Part shown: one piece after another, positions 7,732 to 29,063 of the stretch
Numbering within the stretch: position 1 is the first letter of the stretch
Layout of the letters: each line of letters opens with the position of its first letter
Origin: Bacteroidota bacterium
GTDB taxonomy: Bacteria; Bacteroidota; Rhodothermia; Rhodothermales; JANQRZ01
Assembly: GCA_038746285.1 (NCBI GenBank)
Contig: JBCDKT010000044.1
Span: 1-33,803 of the forward strand
Direction: 5' to 3'
Length of the DNA stretch: 33,803 bases
Translations under genes and position numbers: made by a program
Notes under the pieces: generated by a model
Database searches by the model: none
The model's input: the letters and a program-made list of their open reading frames with translations, nothing else
Told to the model about the DNA's origin: nothing

Positions 7732-8478
7732 TCAGGCGGGGTGCGTGCCGAGGGGTCGGCGTGGCACGGTAGTGCGGTGGTCGGCCTCGTCGCCCAGGAA
7801 CTCCCCGTTCTGCGCCACGGTCGCGAGCGTGTTCAGCGCCAGCAGCCCGAAGCCCACCTTCGCTACAACGTCCAGGGCCGTGAATAGCCCGGCCTCCCAC
7901 GTGTCACCGACCACGTCGAGGCCCTCGGGCGAGATCAGCCAGACAACCGGATACAGCGTCCACAGGAACACGTGGACCGTCACTAGGCGCCGGAACGCGC
8001 TGACCGACCGGGGGTGGGCCGCGACCGCGCTCCGCCGGTACGGTCCGAGGAGCATGTAGGCCACGCCGAGATAGGCCCCGCACGAGACGACATACCACGT
8101 AAGCGCCCGCGCGTCCTCGGGGAGCAGTGTCGCGATGAACCCGGTCCCGATCATGAACGTATTGGCCCCGATGAGCTGGGCCGCCAGCACGTTCCGGCTC
8201 GACGCGATGAGCGTGAGGTCGAGGAGCAGGAGCGGCGTCGTGAGCCCCCACGTGGCGTAGCGGACCCACGTCGTCTTCGTCCCGTCGGCCGAGACGAACG
8301 CCCCGAACCCCATCGCCATCGTGAGGTAGAGCGCGAACGCGACGAGGCAGATGAAGAAGTTCAGCGTGTAGAGGATCTCGCGCGGGCGGTGCTCAGCCCT
8401 CGCCGCGCCGAGCCCGAACACGACCGAGCCGAGCGCCATCGCCGCTGTGCCGATCCAGTACCACGTCGTCGCTGTCAT
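7732..8478 (-). CDS. Microbial (type 1) rhodopsin with T-T-D motif
   Basis: A 248-aa seven-helix retinal protein. Helix C reads WVRYATWGLTTPLLLLDL, giving Arg73, Thr76, Thr80 and Asp87 at the bacteriorhodopsin positions R82, D85, T89 and D96. Helix G reads LDVVAKVGFG with Asp203 (D212) and Schiff-base Lys207 (K216). LWTLYPVVWL of helix F is canonical. Glu residues near the extracellular release group (SPEG and TWEAGLF) are kept, while the D115 position is Asn106. The primary proton acceptor is thus Thr, as in halorhodopsins, but the cytoplasmic donor Asp is kept. An inward anion pump is the most likely function. It probably forms an operon with the channel-like gene; no carotenoid or retinal synthesis gene is in view. 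Confidence 0.93.
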   Translation of the reverse strand: MTATTWYWIGTAAMALGSVVFGLGAARAEHRPREILYTLNFFICLVAFALYLTMAMGFGAFVSADGTKTTWVRYATWGLTTPLLLLDLTLIASSRNVLAAQLIGANTFMIGTGFIATLLPEDARALTWYVVSCGAYLGVAYMLLGPYRRSAVAAHPRSVSAFRRLVTVHVFLWTLYPVVWLISPEGLDVVGDTWEAGLFTALDVVAKVGFGLLALNTLATVAQNGEFLGDEADHRTTVPRRPLGTHPA

Positions 8479-8539
8479 TTCGGATGAGGTGAAGGAGAGG
8501 GGTTGACTACCGACCTTACCGTGCCTGGTCCCGGTCTCA

Positions 8540-8559
8540 ACCTGAAAAGCCGCTCAGGT
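8540..8559. promoter_or_regulatory. 20-bp palindromic element A (rhodopsin / nucleotide-domain intergenic)
   Basis: ACCTGAAAAGCCGCTCAGGT, with perfect 6-bp arms and an 8-nt centre. It lies 61 bp before the rhodopsin ATG and 48 bp before the gene at 8608. It shares the ACCTGA-N8-TMAGGT pattern of the copper-island elements, being closest to the element upstream of the response regulator gene. Confidence 0.5.
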
Positions 8560-8607
8560 CGGCTTCCAGTCCTGCCGTTCGCCTCCTGATCCTACCCGTC
8601 CAGCCCC

Positions 8608-10383
8608 ATGCCGAACACGATCCGCCTCTTCATGTGGGGCTACCAGCGTGACTTCCAGATCTCGGCGAAAGTCTCTGCCGAGTCGCTGTTCGGCGCTCTG
8701 GACCCTGCCCTGGACCCCGAGGTCGTCCTCGTCGGTGGCCGACTCGGCTCCGAGAGCAACCGCCACCCCCTGTGCGTGGACCCCGAGGACGGCGACATCC
8801 CACTCGACCAGCTTGACGGCCTCGCCGAGCAGGTCGAACAGGCACAGCGGGACGACCCCGAGAACGAGATAATTCATTCGCACCCCGTCGCTGAGCAAAA
8901 CTGCAAGCGACGGGTCCGTTGGCGCGCGTTCTCCGAAGGCGTCGCGCGGACGCTGGCCCTGCACCGGCCCGACCGAGCCTTCTTCGCCTCGTTTCCCCAA
9001 CCCGTCGAACACCACCTCGTCACGTGCGTGCTCCACCTTGACCGGGGCGCTCTGGAGGCTCACCCTCGGCTCCACCAGGCCGACTACCTCCACCGGTTTG
9101 TCGTGCCGACCTCACTGGTCGAGGCCACAATCCAAACGTTCCTCGACAAATGCACCGACGAGCTCAGTCGGTCCGAGCCTGGCATGTGGCTCTCCGGACG
9201 GGGACCCGCCGATCTCCTGCGGAACGCGGGGCGCCGCCTCATGACCAACCCAGGTCGGCGCCTCGCCTGGGGCGGGCAGAACGACGACCTCTACGACCAA
9301 GTCGACGCGGTCTCAGCGCTTCGCTACGAGGGGGCCGAGGGGAAAGGGCGGCTCCTACTCACCGACAAGGACGGGACCGGGGTCCGGCGCACGCTGACGC
9401 TCGAGTCGCCGGTCCCGTTGAAGGCGGGCCGGGCGGCCCGCAAGCTCGTCGAGATGGCGACCTCCCAACTCGACCTCCTCGCCACGCCAGTAGCGGGGAT
9501 CTACGGGCTCGGCACGGCCGACCCGGACGATGACCCATCCGAGGAGCGCGTCTTCGAGGTCGTCTTTCTCAAAGGAAACGCCTGGGAGCTCCGCCACGCC
9601 GGGGTCCCGCTCATGCGCGTCGCCGGCGGCATCCCCGAGCTCCCACGCGACCCCATCCAGCGCGCCGACTTCGACACCTTGGTCAAACGGGTTCTCGGGT
9701 CGCCCGGTGACCTCGACCCAGACGCCCTGTGGACCGCCGTCGAGGCCGCGCGCCGCCAACGCCACGGGACTCTCCTCGTTGTCTCCACCGGGGCCGCGTC
9801 CGAGGCTGCCCGGCTCGCCGCCCAGAGCACGCCGGTCGAGCCGGTCACCCTCACGCCCGCTCTCGTCCACGCCGTCTCGGCCATCGACGGGGCGGTCCTC
9901 GTGGACGCCGCCGGGACCTGCCACGCCGTTGGTGCCATCCTGGACGGCATGGCGGCGGACGGCGGCGATCCCGGCCGAGGCGCCCGCTACAACTCGGCTC
10001 ACCGGTACGTCGAGACCGCCGCGCGCGACCTCGGCCACCGCACGCTAGCCGTCGTCGTCTCCGAGGACGGGATGGTCGATGCCCTCCCCGCACTGCGTCC
10101 CCAACTCGATCTCGCCGAGATCGAGACGCGGCTCGCAGACCTCCGCCACCACCGCGAGAACCCCCACGAGAGCCGGACGCTATTCTGTCGCACCGAGGCC
10201 TGGCTTCGCAAGCACGCCTTCTACCTCGACGCCGAGCAGTGCGAGGAGGTCAACGAGGCCGTCCGGAGTGTCCGCCAAGCGTGGCATGAGGCCGAGCCCA
10301 CAGCCATCCGGGTCGTGGACCGCCCGCTGGCACCCCACCCCGACTTCGATCAATCCTACCTCACGGAGACGGAAGAACCCTAG
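8608..10383 (+). CDS. Large protein with DisA_N-like (diadenylate-cyclase-related) nucleotide domain
   Basis: A 591-aa protein. The C-terminal part shows the layout of the DAC/DisA_N superfamily: IDGAVLVDAAGTCHAVGAIL with the DGA motif near residues 427-429, RGARYNSAHRY near 457-467, and VVVSEDGMVDALP near 481-492. In true diadenylate cyclases the second motif carries RHR; here it reads RYN, so it may bind or sense a nucleotide rather than make c-di-AMP. This resembles the divergent DACN-type sensor domains predicted for nucleotide-based conflict systems. The N-terminal 350 residues match nothing I recognise. A small reading frame follows at 10412. Function unknown. Confidence 0.7.
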   Translation: MPNTIRLFMWGYQRDFQISAKVSAESLFGALDPALDPEVVLVGGRLGSESNRHPLCVDPEDGDIPLDQLDGLAEQVEQAQRDDPENEIIHSHPVAEQNCKRRVRWRAFSEGVARTLALHRPDRAFFASFPQPVEHHLVTCVLHLDRGALEAHPRLHQADYLHRFVVPTSLVEATIQTFLDKCTDELSRSEPGMWLSGRGPADLLRNAGRRLMTNPGRRLAWGGQNDDLYDQVDAVSALRYEGAEGKGRLLLTDKDGTGVRRTLTLESPVPLKAGRAARKLVEMATSQLDLLATPVAGIYGLGTADPDDDPSEERVFEVVFLKGNAWELRHAGVPLMRVAGGIPELPRDPIQRADFDTLVKRVLGSPGDLDPDALWTAVEAARRQRHGTLLVVSTGAASEAARLAAQSTPVEPVTLTPALVHAVSAIDGAVLVDAAGTCHAVGAILDGMAADGGDPGRGARYNSAHRYVETAARDLGHRTLAVVVSEDGMVDALPALRPQLDLAEIETRLADLRHHRENPHESRTLFCRTEAWLRKHAFYLDAEQCEEVNEAVRSVRQAWHEAEPTAIRVVDRPLAPHPDFDQSYLTETEEP

Positions 10384-10411: not shown

Positions 10412-10723
10412 TTGTACGGTTGCAAGTGGCCCTCCGCGCCCCCGTTCTTCGAACGTCGCCAGTTCCTCGCTCGGTTCGCTGGCACCGACGGCCCCACCGG
10501 TCCCGTCCAGATCGCCCTCGGCTATCCGTTCCTCACACCCGGAGACATCGTCGTCCACGGCGACGGGGCGGTCTCCGCCGCCGACGAGTTCTTCTGTGAG
10601 GCGCAGCGCCTAGAGACCCTACCCGACCGCGTACTCCTCCGCGCGCTCGGGTGGGCCGACGTCTCAGGCGCCCGGTCTGAGCGGGACCTCGACTGGGTTC
10701 GTCGTCCGAGCGCCGGACCTTAG
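10412..10723 (+). CDS. Possible small hypothetical protein after the nucleotide-domain gene
   Basis: An open frame of about 103 codons from a TTG at 10412 to TAG at 10721. The segment from RRQFLARFAG to LRALGWADVSGARSERD has coding-like composition with balanced acidic and hydrophobic residues, unlike antisense frames nearby. It begins 28 bp after the preceding stop and converges on the histidine kinase gene, overlapping its last bases. No ATG or GTG is available near the start, so the true start is uncertain. No family recognised; it could act with the upstream protein. Confidence 0.4.
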   Translation: MYGCKWPSAPPFFERRQFLARFAGTDGPTGPVQIALGYPFLTPGDIVVHGDGAVSAADEFFCEAQRLETLPDRVLLRALGWADVSGARSERDLDWVRRPSAGP

Positions 10724-12183
10724 GCGGTATCCAGGCAAGGCAGCGCCGCCCAGAACGTGGCCCCCTGCCCCGGCCCACCACTCTCGCACCCCACCTCGCC
10801 ACCGTACCCCTCGACGATGGCTTTGACGATCGCGAGCCCGAGCCCGCTCCCTGACTCGGCCTGGACCTCCGGCGTGTCGGCCCGGAAGAACCGGTCGAAC
10901 AGCCGCTCGCACGTGGCGTCGTCGAACCCCGGGCCGGAGTCCGTCACCTCGAGCCGGGCCGCGTCCAGGTGCCGCCCGTCCAGGTCCCGGTGACGCAGCG
11001 TGACGTGGACCCGGCCACCGGTCGGCGTGTACTTGACCGCGTTCGAGACCAGATTGTCGACGACCTGTGCGAGGGGGGCGGTCTCCGCCGCGATCCGGAC
11101 GTCGTCGTCGGCGTCGACCGTGAGGGACAAACCCTTGGCGTCGGCGTCGCTCCGCACCCGCTCGACGCGCTGGCGGACGAGCGCGCCGAGGTCGACGCGG
11201 GCGTCGGGCGTCCGGACGAGCGACTCGGCGCGGGCGAGCTCGAGGAGGCCCTGAACCGTCCCCGTCATCTCGGCTACGTCCTCGACGACCCGGCCCAGCG
11301 TCTCGCGGTAGGCCTCCGGCTCGCGCTCGCGGCGGAGCGCGACCTCGGCCTCGCTCCGGAGCGTCGCCAGCGGCGTCATCAGCTCGTGGGCGGCGTTCGC
11401 CGTGAACCGCCGCTCGCGCGCGACCGACGCCTCCAGCCGGGCGAGGAGCCCGTTGAACGTCTCGGCCAGGTCCGTCAGCTCGTCGCGCGTCTCGAACTAC
11501 GACGGCAGCCGGCCGCCCAGCCGCGCCCCGTCGCCGGCCATCCGGTCGGCCGCCTCGGTCAGCACGGCCACGGGCCGGAGCGCGCGGCGCGCGAGCCACC
11601 ACCCTGCCCCGAGCGCGAATAGCACGCTCAGCGCCACGCCGAGCGCGAGCATCCGCCCCAAGTCGCGGAGCTCGCGGTGGCGGCTCCACTCGATCCCCGT
11701 GACCTCGACGTACCCCGCCACGTCCCCGCCCGGACCCCGGACCGGCGCGACGAGCGACCGCGCGGGCTCGTCGTCCCAGGTCCGGCTCAGGCGCAGGACG
11801 CCGCCCTCGGGGAGCGCGACGCCCAGCGCCGGGTGCCGCCCGACGTTCTCCGATTGGTAGGTCACCCGGCCCTCGGGCGAGAGCACGCGGACGTACGTCC
11901 CGCTCGGTCCGTCGAGCCGGGTCGCCACGGCCTCCGTTTCCTCTAGCGCCCCGGCGTCCACGCCGTCCGGCCCGACCGTGAGGAGCGGCTCGATCACGCC
12001 CCACTCGTGGTCGAGGTGGCGGTCGAACGAGCGGTGCGCGGCGGCGTGGAACCCGACGTAGCAGAACACGGCGAACGCGCTCAGGAGCAGGAGCAGCGTC
12101 AGCGCGTACCACAGCGCAAGCCGGGCCGAGATGGGGAGGGTGCGGAGGCGGGCCATGCCGGAAGAACGCGACGCGGCGCTCAC
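10720..12183 (-). pseudogene. cusS: CusS-like sensor histidine kinase interrupted by in-frame TAG
   Basis: Membrane sensor kinase: TM1, a periplasmic domain of about 110 residues, TM2, HAMP, DHp and HATPase. The frame is open across the full length except for a single TAG at 11497-11499, inside the HAMP region between GGRLPS and FETRDELTDLAE. Downstream the frame resumes unchanged: phospho-acceptor His in NAAHELMTPLATL (His266; Met replaces the usual Arg of HELRTPL), N-box DNLVSNAVKYT, and G boxes DSGPGFDD and GSGLGLAIVKA. The intact product would be about 487 aa. It starts with GTG overlapping the TGA of the response regulator (an ATG at 12156 is an alternative). A nonsense mutation, readthrough, two separate polypeptides or a base error could each explain it. 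Confidence 0.85.
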
Positions 12184-12938
12184 GTCGCGCCACTGGCGGT
12201 CTTACCAGGCACCATCCGGTAGCCGACGCCCCGGATCGTCTCGACGCGCGGGGCGTCGGCCGCGCCGGACGCCTTGACCGCGTCGTCGAGCCGCTGGCGG
12301 AGCCCGCTCACGGTCACGTCGAGGGCGTTGTCGGTGACGTAGAGCGCGTCGCCCCAGACCCGCTCGGCGAGCACCGTCCGCGAGAGGGCCGCGTCGGCGC
12401 TCCGCATGAACACCTCCAGCATCGCGTACTCCTTCGGGCGGAGGTTCAGGACGGCCTCGCCGGCTGTTCCGATCATCGTCGCCCGTCGGCGCTCGCCGTC
12501 GAGCGCGAGGGGGCCGACGCGGACGACCCGCTCCACGTCCGAGAGCGGGGGGCGGCGCAGGAGCGCCCGGAGCCGGGCCACGAGCTCCTCGAACGCGAAT
12601 GGCTTCGGTAGGTAGTCGTCGGCGCCGGCGTCGAGCCCCGCGACCCGGTGCTCGACGTCCGAGAGCGCCGTCAGCATCAGGACGGGCTGGTCTTTCCCCG
12701 CGGCGCGGACGCGCTCGACGAGGGTCTTCCCGTCGCCCCTCGGCAACCGCCAGTCGACGACGAAGGCGTCGTAGCCGTTCGCGAGCGCGAGCCGCTCGCC
12801 CTCCTCGGCGTCGCCCGCCACGTCGACGCGGTACCCCTCCTCCTCCAACCCGCGGCGGACGGAGTCGGCGAGTCGGGCCTCGTCTTCGATGAGCAGGACC
12901 CACATCGGGGCGTCGGGGGAGGGGAACGGGTCGGACAT
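12180..12938 (-). CDS. cusR: OmpR-family response regulator (CusR/CopR-like)
   Basis: A 252-aa two-component regulator. The receiver domain has acidic pocket IEDEA, phospho-acceptor Asp62 in FVVDWRLPRGDG, Thr90 in LMLTALSD and Lys112 in LPKPFAFEEL. A winged-helix output domain follows (LRPKEYAMLEVFMR, then VSGLRQRLDD and IRGVGYRM). The ATG at 12938 was preferred to one at 12971, because the latter would overlap a 20-bp palindromic element (12970-12989). With 12938 the element sits about 31 bp upstream, fitting autoregulation. Its gene is followed by the interrupted sensor kinase and is divergent from the copper genes. Copper/silver sensing is inferred from context. Confidence 0.88.
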   Translation of the reverse strand: MSDPFPSPDAPMWVLLIEDEARLADSVRRGLEEEGYRVDVAGDAEEGERLALANGYDAFVVDWRLPRGDGKTLVERVRAAGKDQPVLMLTALSDVEHRVAGLDAGADDYLPKPFAFEELVARLRALLRRPPLSDVERVVRVGPLALDGERRRATMIGTAGEAVLNLRPKEYAMLEVFMRSADAALSRTVLAERVWGDALYVTDNALDVTVSGLRQRLDDAVKASGAADAPRVETIRGVGYRMVPGKTASGAT

Positions 12939-12969
12939 GCAATACCCACGTGGAGCGGACGGGACCGGC

Positions 12970-12989
12970 ACCTTAACGCCTTTTCAGGT
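12970..12989. promoter_or_regulatory. 20-bp palindromic element B (cusR / DUF2231 divergent promoter)
   Basis: Read on the minus strand it is ACCTGAAAAGGCGTTAAGGT. It lies about 31 bp before the response regulator ATG and 59 bp before a small plus-strand frame at 13049. It fits the ACCTGA-N8-TMAGGT consensus of seven sites in the window and could serve both divergent units. Confidence 0.65.
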
Positions 12990-14228: not shown

Positions 14229-14248
14229 ACCTGAGCGCCTTTTAAGGC
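14229..14248 (+). promoter_or_regulatory. 20-bp palindromic element C (before multicopper oxidase)
   Basis: ACCTGAGCGCCTTTTAAGGC, 58 bp before the multicopper oxidase ATG at 14307. The last base differs from consensus (C for T). Same orientation relative to the gene as elements D, E and G. Confidence 0.65.
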
Positions 14249-20303: not shown

Positions 20304-20357
20304 GACGGTCGGGAGGTCGTAACGGCCCAAGTTCGCACGCGAGGGTGACAGCTCGTG

Positions 20358-20589: not shown

Positions 20590-20609
20590 ACCTGATCAGC
20601 TTTTAAGGT
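20590..20609 (+). promoter_or_regulatory. 20-bp palindromic element D (before CPH-type copper ATPase)
   Basis: ACCTGATCAGCTTTTAAGGT, 60 bp before the ATPase ATG at 20670. Both conserved ends are intact. Confidence 0.68.
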
Positions 20610-22935: not shown

Positions 22936-22955
22936 ACCTGAGGGGCATTTAAGGT
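22936..22955 (+). promoter_or_regulatory. 20-bp palindromic element E (before copper-storage gene)
   Basis: ACCTGAGGGGCATTTAAGGT, 84 bp before the ATG at 23040. Confidence 0.65.
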
Positions 22956-23039: not shown

Positions 23040-23453
23040 ATGCGTACTCAGGACATGCTCTCGAAGCACCCCAACCCCTCCGAGCACCTCGACAAGATCG
23101 TCGCGCTCGTCAACAGCGCGTTCGCCTGCGAGCAGTGCTGTACGAGCTGCGCCGACGCCTGCCTCGACGAGGATGGCGACATGGACCTCCGGTACTGCAT
23201 CCGGACCAACCTCGACTGCGCCGACATCTGTGCCACGACGGGCCGCGCGCTCTCGCGCCAGACGCAGCCGAACGCCAAGGTCCTCCGCGCCCAGCTCGAG
23301 GCCTGCGTCGCCGCCTGCGACGCCTGCGCCGACGAGTGCTCGAAGCACGCCGATATGCACGACCACTGCCGCGTGTGCATGGAGTGCTGCCGCGAGTGCT
23401 CCAAGGCCTGCCAGGCCCTCCTCGACGCCATGTCCCAGGGCGCGGCGGCCTAG
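23040..23453 (+). CDS. csp: Cys-rich four-helix-bundle copper-storage protein (Csp/DUF326-like)
   Basis: A 137-aa protein with 18 Cys residues spaced along predicted helices: FACEQCCTSCADAC, DCADIC, EACVAACDACADEC, and HCRVCMECCRECSKAC. This is the pattern of copper storage proteins, which bind many Cu(I) ions inside a four-helix bundle. No signal peptide is seen, so it fits the cytosolic Csp3 type. It is preceded by palindromic element E and followed by a hairpin terminator, so it is likely made at high level on its own when copper is present. Confidence 0.9.
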   Translation: MRTQDMLSKHPNPSEHLDKIVALVNSAFACEQCCTSCADACLDEDGDMDLRYCIRTNLDCADICATTGRALSRQTQPNAKVLRAQLEACVAACDACADECSKHADMHDHCRVCMECCRECSKACQALLDAMSQGAAA

Positions 23454-25379: not shown

Positions 25380-25399
25380 ACCTGAGCACCTTTTAAGGT
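25380..25399. promoter_or_regulatory. 20-bp palindromic element F (before DUF305 gene)
   Basis: ACCTGAGCACCTTTTAAGGT, identical to element G. It lies 81 bp upstream of the minus-strand DUF305 ATG, in inverted orientation compared with the other gene/element pairs, which suggests a symmetric binding site rather than a directional promoter. Confidence 0.65.
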
Positions 25400-25459: not shown

Positions 25460-26260
25460 TCAGGCCGCGTCGAAGACGGGCCGGAAGCCCGCGCCCTCCA
25501 CGGCGGCGCGCACGGCCTCGCGGTCGGCGCCGCCCGAGAGCCGGACGACGGCCGGGCCATCGAGCGTGAGCCGCTCGACGGTCACGCCGGGCGTCCGGTC
25601 GAGCGCGCGCGTGGCCCCGGCGACGCAGCCGCCGCAGGTCATGCCCTTGATGTTGAAGGTGAGGGCGTCGTCGGTGTTCGGGTTGTCGGTGTGCATGGGA
25701 GTAGGGGAGAGTGAAACAGGGGGGTTGGGTAGGGCGGCGCAGGTGCAGTCGAGGCACCCAGCGCACGCCCGGCAGACGTCTTCGAGCCGTTCGCGGAGCG
25801 CCGCGCGGGCGCGGTGCCGACGGACGCGGAGCGTGCCGGCCGACACGCCGAGCCGGTCCGCCACCTCGGCCGCAGGCTCGCCGTCGAGGTCGGCGCGGAG
25901 GACCTCGGCGGCCTCTGGCGCGAGGTCGTTCAGGAGCGGTTGGTAGCACGCGCAGAGCCGGGGCGCCTCCTCGGTCGGCATCACGGCGTCGGGCTGCTCG
26001 TCTGCCCACGCCGTCTCGCGGCGGCCCGCGGCCTCCCGTCGGCGGTGGGCGTCGACGGTCGCGTTCCGGACGACGCGCCACAACCAGCGCGTGAGGTCGG
26101 CCTCGCCGTCCATCGGCGGCGCGGCCTCGACCGCCTTCAAGAGCGCGTCCTGGACTACGTCTTCGGCCACGCCAGGGCCGAGCCGCTGGCGGACGTAGGC
26201 GACGAGCGGCTCGGCCTGTGCGGCGAGCGTGGCGTCGAGCAGGGTGGGGGAGAGAGGCAT
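25460..26260 (-). CDS. CorE-like metal-sensing ECF sigma factor fused to CopZ-like HMA domain
   Basis: A 266-aa protein in one uninterrupted frame. Residues 1-160 are an ECF sigma factor: region 2 VVQDALLKAVE and WLWRVVRNATVDAHRRR; region 4 EPAAEVADRLGVSAGTLRVR. Cys103-Ala-Cys105 lies in the linker and a Cys cluster (Cys163, 166, 169, 172, 174) follows region 4. A CxC linker plus C-terminal Cys-rich domain is the signature of CorE-like (ECF44) factors, which sense copper or other metals directly without an anti-sigma factor. After a Pro/Ser linker, residues 198-264 form a heavy-metal-associated domain with NIKGMTCGGC (Cys209, Cys212) and GFRPVF. The ATG at 26260 was preferred to a GTG at 26284, which falls in the promoter -10. 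It lies 46 bp downstream of copA on the same strand. Confidence 0.88.
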   Translation of the reverse strand: MPLSPTLLDATLAAQAEPLVAYVRQRLGPGVAEDVVQDALLKAVEAAPPMDGEADLTRWLWRVVRNATVDAHRRREAAGRRETAWADEQPDAVMPTEEAPRLCACYQPLLNDLAPEAAEVLRADLDGEPAAEVADRLGVSAGTLRVRRHRARAALRERLEDVCRACAGCLDCTCAALPNPPVSLSPTPMHTDNPNTDDALTFNIKGMTCGGCVAGATRALDRTPGVTVERLTLDGPAVVRLSGGADREAVRAAVEGAGFRPVFDAA

Positions 26261-26281
26261 GATATGGGGGGCGTTCACCGG

Positions 26282-26314
26282 CACAAACGCGGCGGCCCGT
26301 CGAACGTTACCGAG
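26282..26314 (-). promoter_or_regulatory. ECF-type promoter of the sigma-HMA gene
   Basis: On the minus strand: CTCGGTAACG, 14 nt, then GCGTTTGT. GGTAAC to CGTTTG spacing is 16 bp, normal for ECF sigma factors. It ends 21 bp before the ATG at 26260. The same flanks recur before copA with a diverged spacer. The -35 overlaps the copA stop codon. Autoregulation by the sigma factor is inferred. Confidence 0.65.
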
Positions 26315-28919
26315 CGGCCACCGCGGCGGAGCCGACTGTTGGTGGTATGAAGCGCCGCAGGCGGAGCGCGTTCGTCAGCACGAACACCGACGACAGGCCC
26401 ATCGCCGCCGCGCCGAGCACGGGCGAGAGCAGCACGCCGAGCGCCGGGTACAGCACGCCCGCCGCGACCGGGATCAGCACGACGTTGTAGGCAAAGGCCC
26501 AGAACAGGTTTTGCTTGACGTTGCGGAGCGTGGCCGCCGAGAGCGCCTGGGCCTCGACGAGCGCCGTGAGGTCGCCGCGCATGAGCACCACGTCGGCGGC
26601 CTCGATGGCGACGTCGGTCCCGGTCCCAATCGCGACGCCGACGTCGGCCTGGGCGAGCGCGGGGGCGTCGTTGATTCCGTCGCCGACGAACGCCACGTGC
26701 AACGGGCGTCCGCCGCGTCCGCCCTCGCCTTGGAGATCGCGCACGGCCTGGGCCTTGTCGGCGGGGAGCACCTCGGCGAGCACCTCGTCGATGCCGAGGC
26801 GCCGCGCGATGGCCTCGGCCGTGGCCCGGTTGTCGCCGGTGACCATGGCGACGCGGAGCCCGGCGTCGTGGAGCGCGTCGATGGCCGCGGGCGTCGTCGC
26901 CTTGACCGGGTCGGAGACGGCGAGGGCCGCAACGAGCACGCCGTCGACGGCCGCGTAGAGCGGCGTCTTGCCCTCACCCGCGAGGGCGCCAGAGGCCGCG
27001 GCGAGAGGCGCCACGTCGAGCCCGACCCGGGCCATGAACCGGTCGGCTCCGACCTCGACGCGGCGGCCCTCGACCGTCCCGCGCACGCCGAAGCCGGGCA
27101 CGGCCACGAAGTCGGACGCCGCCGGCAGGTCGATACCGCGCTCGTCCGCCGCGCGCACGATGGCCGCCGCGACCGGGTGCTCGCTCGGCACCTCGACCGC
27201 GGCTACAAGCCGGAGCAGTTCCGTTTCGTCCAGCCCGGCCTCTGGCGCTAGCGCCACGTCGGTCAGCGTCGGGCGGCCCTCGGTGAGCGTCCCCGTCTTG
27301 TCGAGCGCGACCACGTCAGCCTCGGACAGCGTCTGCAACGCCTCGCCCTTGCGGAAGAGCACGCCCAGCTCGGCCGCCTTCCCGGTCCCCACCATCACCG
27401 AGACGGGCGTCGCGAGCCCCATCGCGCACGGGCACGCGATGATGAGCACCGAGACCGCGGCCACGAGCGCGTAGGTCAGCGCCGGGCTCGGCCCGACGGC
27501 GAGCCAGACGCCGAACACGAGCGCGGCGATCACGAGCACGATGGGCACGAACACGGCGACCACGCGGTCCGCCAGCGCCTGGATCGCGGGCCGCGACGCC
27601 TGGGCGTCCTCGACGAGCCGGACGATCTGGGCGAGCACGGTGTCGGCCCCGACGCGCGTCGTCCGCATGAGCAGCGCCCCGGCCTGGTTGACGGTCCCGC
27701 CGACGACCTCCGCGTCCGCGCCCTTCTCGACCGGGACGGGCTCGCCGGTCACCATCGACTCGTCGACGTAGCTCGTGCCCTCGGTGACCACGCCGTCCAC
27801 CGGCACCTTCTCGCCCGGCCGCACGCGGACGACGTCGCCCACGGCTACGTCCTCGATGGGGACCTCGGCCTCGACTGGGCCGGTGCCCGGTCCACCGTCG
27901 CGGACCACGCGGGCCGTCTTTGCCCTCAGCCCGAGGAGCGCGCGGACGGCGTCCGACGTCTGGCCCTTGGCGCGGGCCTCGAACCACTTGCCGAGCAGGA
28001 TGAGCGTGATGATCGTCGCCGACGCCTCGTAGTACACGTGGACCGCGCCCTCGGGGAGCACGCCCGGCAGGAACGTCGCGACGACGGAGTACCCGTAGGC
28101 CGCCGACGTGCCGAGGGCGACGAGCGTGTTCATGTCGGGCGAGCCGTGGCGGGCCGCCGCCCACCCGGCGCGGTAGAATCGGAGGCCTGGTCCAAACTGG
28201 ACCGCTGTCGCCAGCGCGAACGCCACGAGCCAGCGCGTCTGCATCGGGACGAGCCCGTCGATCCAGGCCATCCCACCGGGGACCGCCATCGGCACCATCT
28301 CCATGAGGAACAGCGGGAGCGTGAGCCCGGCGGCCCACAGGAGTCGACGCCGCAGCCGCTGGCGGTCGAGCTCTCGCGCCTGGCGCTCAGCGTCCTCCGT
28401 CGTCGTCCCGCCCACGGCCTCGACGACGTCGTAACCCGTCTTCCGGACGGCCTCGTAGAGCGCCTCGACGTCGGTCCCGGCGGCGTAGCGGACGCGGGCG
28501 CGCTCGGTCGCCAGGTTCACTGACGCCTCGACCACGCCGTCGGCGCCTTGCAGCGCACGCTCGACGCGCCCGACGCACGCCGCGCACGTCATCCCACCCA
28601 CGGCGAAGCTCACCTCCTCGGTCCGCACGTCGTAGCCCGCTCGCTGGACGGCCTCGGCGAGCGCCAGAGGCGTCGTCTCGGCCGCGTCGAACTGGACGGT
28701 CGCCCGCTCGGTCGCGAGGTTGACCGTCGCCTCGTGGACGCCGGGGACCTTCGACAGCGCCTTCTCGACACGGCCCGAGCACGCGGCGCACGTCATGCCC
28801 TCGACGCCCAGCGTCGCGTGCGAGAGCGGCCGGGGCGGGCCGACTACGGCACCGTCGCCGGACGGGCTGGCGTCGGCGGCAGGCGGGTCGGAGGGCAGGG
28901 CAGGGGAGGGGTGGGGCAT
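26307..28919 (-). CDS. copA: P1B-1-type Cu(I)-exporting ATPase CopA (CPC motif, two HMA domains)
   Basis: An 870-aa copper pump of the inner membrane. Two N-terminal HMA domains carry GMTCAAC (Cys44/47 and Cys112/115). Eight transmembrane helices follow, with the Cu(I) motif CPC at 496-498 ([13 protein letters not shown]), actuator [12 protein letters not shown], phosphorylation Asp540 in [14 protein letters not shown], and hinge [12 protein letters not shown]-terminal YN (FAYNVVLIP) and MxxSS (MGLSSV) motifs fit P1B-1 pumps. The first about 35 residues are Pro/Ala-rich. Transcription probably starts at the ECF-type promoter 21 bp upstream, and the sigma-HMA gene follows, so pump and copper sensor form one unit. 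Confidence 0.96.
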
Positions 28920-28939
28920 CTCAGGTCGGGCGTTTCCTC

Positions 28940-28972
28940 GACAAACGCAGCGGCTGTCGTCCCGTTACCGAG
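28940..28972 (-). promoter_or_regulatory. ECF-type promoter of copA
   Basis: CTCGGTAACG, 14 nt, then GCGTTTGT on the minus strand, ending about 21 bp before the copA ATG at 28919. The flanks (10 and 8 bp) are identical to the promoter at 26282-26314 while only 5 of 14 spacer bases match, which is what a promoter under selection should look like. Confidence 0.65.
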
Positions 28973-29043: not shown

Positions 29044-29063
29044 ACCTGAGCACCTTTTAAGGT
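29044..29063 (+). promoter_or_regulatory. 20-bp palindromic element G (before the cus operon)
   Basis: ACCTGAGCACCTTTTAAGGT, 26 bp before the GTG at 29090, in the divergent region between copA and the cus genes. It contains a 12-bp inner palindrome (ACCTTTTAAGGT). Confidence 0.68.

Follow-up and report, generated by a model that had tools for sequence, protein, structure and literature searches.

In the stretch of Bacteroidota DNA analysed here (33,803 nucleotides, referred to as the window), a sigma factor gene lies directly downstream of the copper ATPase gene copA, and two similar bipartite sites are found, one before each gene. The initial annotation had read this layout as that of an autoregulated ECF sigma factor and its target pump. 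The question is whether the two sites are promoters of that sigma factor, and what kind of regulator it would then be. From the analysis below, both sites are very probably promoters of a CorE-like ECF sigma factor encoded directly downstream of copA.

Two matched sites before copA and the sigma factor gene

The site before copA, CTCGGTAACG-N14-GCGTTTGT, extends from 28941 to 28972 (-), with the -35 element GGTAAC at 28964-28969 and the -10 region GCGTTTGT at 28941-28948 (-). The gene itself (26307-28919 (-); Pfam, NCBIfam TIGR01511) encodes a Cu(I) P1B-type ATPase of 870 aa with two N-terminal HMA domains and a CPC motif. The site before the sigma factor gene, again CTCGGTAACG-N14-GCGTTTGT, extends from 26283 to 26314 (-). 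Both sites had been placed correctly by the initial annotation (28940-28972 and 26282-26314), except that the low ends were 1 bp too low; each site spans 32 bp and not 33. As described there, the 10-bp and 8-bp blocks are identical between the two sites, the spacers match at 5 of 14 positions, and the distance to the ATG is about 21 bp (21 bp for copA, with the ATG at 28919, and 22 bp for the sigma gene, with the ATG at 26260). The -35 element before the sigma gene indeed overlaps the copA stop, as the TAA (26307-26309) lies inside GGTAAC. The five matching spacer positions form a contiguous GCCGC adjoining the downstream block, so that the downstream match is really GCCGC[T/C]GCGTTTGT.

When the whole genome (4,075,081 bases) was searched for the core GGTAAC-N16-CGTTTG, exact matches were obtained at these two places only, and the reversed control gave none. 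Occurrence of the motif at random positions had been named as evidence against the proposed layout; it was observed neither for this strict core genome-wide nor for the consensus searched in eight genomes (see below). With three mismatches allowed, 63 matches appeared in the genome against 22 in the reversed control. These were scattered, and hence only near-exact sites are meaningful; the three-mismatch set was rejected as a regulon, being mostly background. A match with two mismatches at 20344, near the second ATPase gene, was also rejected as being at chance level. The regulon in this genome probably comprises these two transcription units only.

Among 3000 random pairs of 150-bp segments of the window, an equally good bipartite match (18 bases in two blocks) was found in four. 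A test of plain 32-bp identity, ignoring the block structure, was much weaker, with 53 of 1981 random pairs being as good. These local chance estimates are modest, and the case therefore rests on conservation in relatives.

The sigma factor has CorE-like features

The gene downstream of copA (25460-26260 (-)) encodes a protein of 266 aa in which Sigma70_r2, Sigma70_r4_2 and a C-terminal HMA domain were recognized by Pfam. Sigma2 and sigma4 (PF04542, PF08281) are its only sigma domains, which is the architecture of an ECF factor. The linker between them contains a CXC motif (C103-A-C105; 25946-25954 (-)) that is invariant in 14 homologues. A Cys-rich domain (CRD), CRACAGCLDCTC, is located at 25739-25774 (-) and contains C163, C166, C169, C172, and C174; C163, C166, C172, and C174 are invariant in the 14 homologues.

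The former ECF44 group is defined by a CXC motif in the sigma2-sigma4 linker (PMC8999054), and a CRD with the invariant residues C181, C184, C192, and C194 is a CorE-like feature (PMC3107203). By order and by the motif spacing C-x2-C...C-x-C, the four invariant cysteines here correspond to these residues, CorE being compared through its published description (PMC3107203). On the same basis, C169 is the counterpart of C189, on which the activation of CorE by copper mainly depends (PMC3107203). Judged by these features, the sigma factor is CorE-like (former ECF44/ECF238). This CorE-like nature, with the CXC and CRD metal ligands, had been missed by the initial annotation and is added here.

CorE-like sigma factors are one-protein metal sensors, and the papers cited here characterize them in one organism, M. 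xanthus (PMC3107203, PMC8999054). Like CorE of M. xanthus (former ECF44, now near ECF238), the present protein combines the CXC between sigma2 and sigma4 with a C-terminal CRD, and it has no linked anti-sigma factor (PMC3107203, PMC8999054); among its neighbours, copA and a gene for a DUF305/DUF7282 protein, no anti-sigma domain was found. CorE has no known anti-sigma factor; Cu(II) switches it on and Cu(I) switches it off (PMC3107203). Given the CXC of its linker and the four cysteines invariant near its C terminus, the sigma factor of the window probably senses copper itself, without an anti-sigma factor. Its second and third CRD cysteines are closer together than in CorE, by two residues, and no counterpart of CorE C206 was seen in its CRD. 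CorE2 of M. xanthus has the same architecture of sigma domains, CXC and CRD, but it responds to Cd and Zn (PMC8999054), whereas the present gene has a copper-gene neighbourhood and its product a counterpart of CorE C189.

An HMA domain in frame with the sigma factor

A further difference from CorE is that an HMA domain is fused to the sigma factor. This CopZ-like domain (residues 201-259; 25484-25660 (-); PF00403, E 1.7e-7) carries the metal-binding motif GMTCGGC and follows the CRD in frame, with no intervening stop, here and in all Rubrivirga-type copies. The HMA fold with GMTCxxC is shared with the CopZ copper chaperones, but these are free proteins, whereas here the domain is on a sigma factor (with an internal start possible). 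Regulation by a fused C-terminal domain is a principle known from other sigma factors (PMC8999054), in which, unlike here, the extension is a SnoaL-like or other domain and not an HMA metal-binding domain. In the AlphaFold2 model the sigma part is folded, residues 168-196 are disordered, and the HMA domain (199-262) adopts a separate ferredoxin-like fold; the pTM of 0.40 says nothing on the contact or arrangement of the domains. Order- and phylum-wide searches gave no sigma-HMA fusion outside the Rubrivirga-type genomes and this one, and neither a described sigma-HMA fusion nor this motif was found in the open-access literature.

CorE of M. xanthus controls cuoB, copB, copA, and the HMA-domain gene MXAN_3427, which by its number is next to corE (MXAN_3426) (PMC3107203). 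By this analogy, the fusion joins partners that are co-regulated in M. xanthus.

It may be asked whether sigma factor and HMA domain are in fact one protein. The sites could be real CorE promoters and the two parts separate products, with the HMA protein made from an internal ATG and the open frame between them incidental. Such an arrangement exists in the more distant genome G002, where a stop separates the sigma and HMA genes, and at locus L164 an HMA gene stands free behind a copA paralogue. Every fused homologue keeps an in-frame ATG shortly before the HMA domain (Met189 here; 25694-25696 (-)), the third-position G+C drops in the linker (0.74-0.84, against 0.92-0.96 in the sigma part), and the C-rich linkers are free of stops before the ATG in other frames as well. 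Yet all intact fused copies are in one frame with no stop, although the linker up to the ATG measures anything from 42 to 57 nt, every length being divisible by three. We consider two separate proteins unlikely; a free HMA protein may be made from Met189 in addition to the fused form. This alternative concerns the protein and not the promoters, and its probability overlaps with that of the promoter reading preferred here.

Conservation of the sites in relatives

The sigma gene has homologues in Rubrivirga-type genomes and in more distant members of the order and phylum. Six further loci, in five genomes (L033/G426, L138/G046, L136 and L137 of G032, L135/G039, and L140/G053), have the pair of sites before both copA and the sigma gene. 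These genomes hold close relatives of one cassette that has probably moved horizontally, so that the loci counted are only partly independent of one another. Across these relatives GTAACG and most of GCGTTTGT stay the same and most spacer positions vary, the spacer columns showing far less conservation than the two blocks.

The consensus KGTAAC-N15-GCGTYTNT gave 12 exact matches in eight genomes (~34 Mb), about one being expected by chance from base composition. All 12 lie directly before copA or a sigma gene, and they are confined to the five genomes with the sigma-HMA gene. No match was obtained in G001 and G013, which have no close CorE-like match, or in the reversed controls. In G002, genes for the sigma factor, the separate HMA protein and CopA follow in a row, and TGTAAC-N15-GCGTCTTC precedes both the sigma gene and copA, a matched pair with its own -10 variant. 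The strict pattern missed this genome because the -10 region ends with TTC instead of TNT.

Just upstream of further CorE-like genes in the order (L142-L146) lies GTAA[C/T/G]-N15-GCGT. At the most distant CorE-like loci (L147-L151, L036), no such site was found directly upstream of the sigma gene. A plasmid of Candidatus Manganitrophus (Nitrospirota) carries a CorE-like gene near HMA and copper ATPase genes, and two tandem TGTAAC-N15-RCGTC sites (L174, 5423-5504) occur just after this gene and before a hypothetical protein gene, a possible CorE-like target in another phylum. A degenerate motif matched 15 times, some of the matches being redundant, in 100 kb of CorE-like loci against three times in 498 kb of other loci. 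The motif is absent at several other copper ATPase genes of these genomes. The L164 copA paralogue, which has no sigma gene, is accompanied by a degenerate site with a spacer longer by one base, as judged by eye.

These results support an autoregulated ECF sigma factor with its target pump: the pair has been kept while the spacer drifted, genomes that gave no close sigma homologue lack it, and the two sites of G002 share one variant. The same putative promoter stands before the sigma gene and its target and is conserved in relatives, as expected of an autoregulated ECF promoter. The sites also agree with the description of the M. xanthus CorE promoter, whose -35 includes AAC, followed at 16-18 residues by a G in the -10, and the copA target and an HMA partner are common to both systems (PMC3107203). 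At the sequence level, conservation in relatives is the decisive evidence for the promoter pair.

A second shared element in the copper island

A 20-bp element, ACCTTAAAAGGYGCTCAGGT, occurs in seven copies in the window with up to three mismatches (8540-8559, 12970-12989, 14229-14248, 20590-20609, 22936-22955, 25380-25399, and 29044-29063). At the same threshold about one copy was found elsewhere in the genome, which is chance level, and in relatives the element occurs only where the island is present. The copy at 29044-29063 (-), ACCTTAAAAGGTGCTCAGGT, lies between copA and the divergent cus genes; that at 25380-25399 (-) follows the sigma-HMA gene and precedes the gene for the DUF305 membrane protein. 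The copies are near the genes for the multicopper oxidase, the second ATPase, csp, cus/copA, the DUF305 protein and a CopR-like response regulator, and one is by the rhodopsin gene and the DAC-domain gene. Their location suggests that the element is probably the site of the CopR-like response regulator (12180-12971), to which the rest of the island (multicopper oxidase, copB, cus, csp), carrying the element, would probably belong. With a copy near it, copA may have two inputs, as has been suggested for copA of M. xanthus (PMC3107203). There, CorE accounts for only part of its own induction and of that of copA (PMC3107203), and by analogy a second regulator may dominate here too.

The two bipartite sites might themselves be operators for another DNA-binding protein, such as a copper repressor or the CopR-like response regulator that the island encodes, and the presence of an unrelated 20-bp element near copA would fit with such control. 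However, that element, with 6-7 copies in the island, is a better candidate for the response regulator. The bipartite AAC...CGT layout with its fixed 15-bp spacing is of the ECF promoter type, and it accompanies CorE-like sigma genes in different families and on the Nitrospirota plasmid. Operators of this kind are thus quite improbable. Least credible of all is that the similarity of the pair is a chance match or the remnant of a local duplication. The plain 32-bp identity, only modestly unusual, would fit with this, but the core is unique genome-wide and the blocks are conserved with diverged spacers in the six further loci.

A possible copper circuit

The analysis shows the matched pair, how conserved and specific it is, and the family features of the sigma factor. 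Taking the two sites as promoters of the CorE-like sigma factor, we infer promoter activity, copper binding and response, and the mode of HMA action. Copper would bind to the sigma factor's own cysteines (the CXC and the CRD) and render it competent, with no part played by an anti-sigma factor. The active sigma factor would then transcribe copA from a start shortly after GCGTTTGT, and, from the second promoter with the copA stop codon within its -35, also its own gene, giving a positive loop. Through this loop more of the attached HMA domain, a Cu(I)-chaperone domain, would be made as well, and this domain might buffer Cu(I), reset the sigma factor, or serve the pump.

A more specific proposal is that of a single-chain copper circuit, in which the full-length product, a CorE-type sigma factor with a two-promoter regulon, has its own Cu(I) chaperone domain, and this domain either removes or exchanges the copper of the CRD (shut-off) or passes copper to the induced pump. 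We put this forward tentatively, as something less than an even chance. The regulon here is apparently limited to copA and the sigma gene itself, in contrast to that of CorE. The CorE-HMA fusion and the apparent two-promoter regulon are the new parts, autoregulated ECF promoters being ordinary. The cassette provides the CorE type outside the phylum of M. xanthus in a compact, testable form, and its clear consensus, KGTAAC-N15-GCGTYT, accompanies the sigma gene from genome to genome. The natural fusion would unite sensing, promoter choice and copper handling, and it bears on the question of how Cu(I) inactivates CorE in the cytoplasm.

Other observations on the cassette and the window

The copA-sigma cassette (25460-28919) is 84-90% identical between different families and is absent from the same-genus relative G001. 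In G039 and G053, which are placed in different genera, CopA is 99.5% identical. This pattern suggests horizontal movement or binning errors.

Adjoining the copper island, at 7732-10383, are a microbial rhodopsin gene (-) and a divergent gene for a DisA-like DAC protein with DACNG/DACNH sensor domains. No relative of the DAC protein was found in the eight related genomes, and the gene is therefore uninformative about a transfer of the contig. Next to the response regulator gene, the gene for the histidine kinase (10720-12183 (-)) has an in-frame stop at codon 229, between the sensor and kinase halves; the gene may be broken, or the stop may be a sequence error. A small Cys-rich four-helix protein encoded at 23040-23453 (+) resembles the Csp1 copper storage proteins (TIGR04401, below cut-off).
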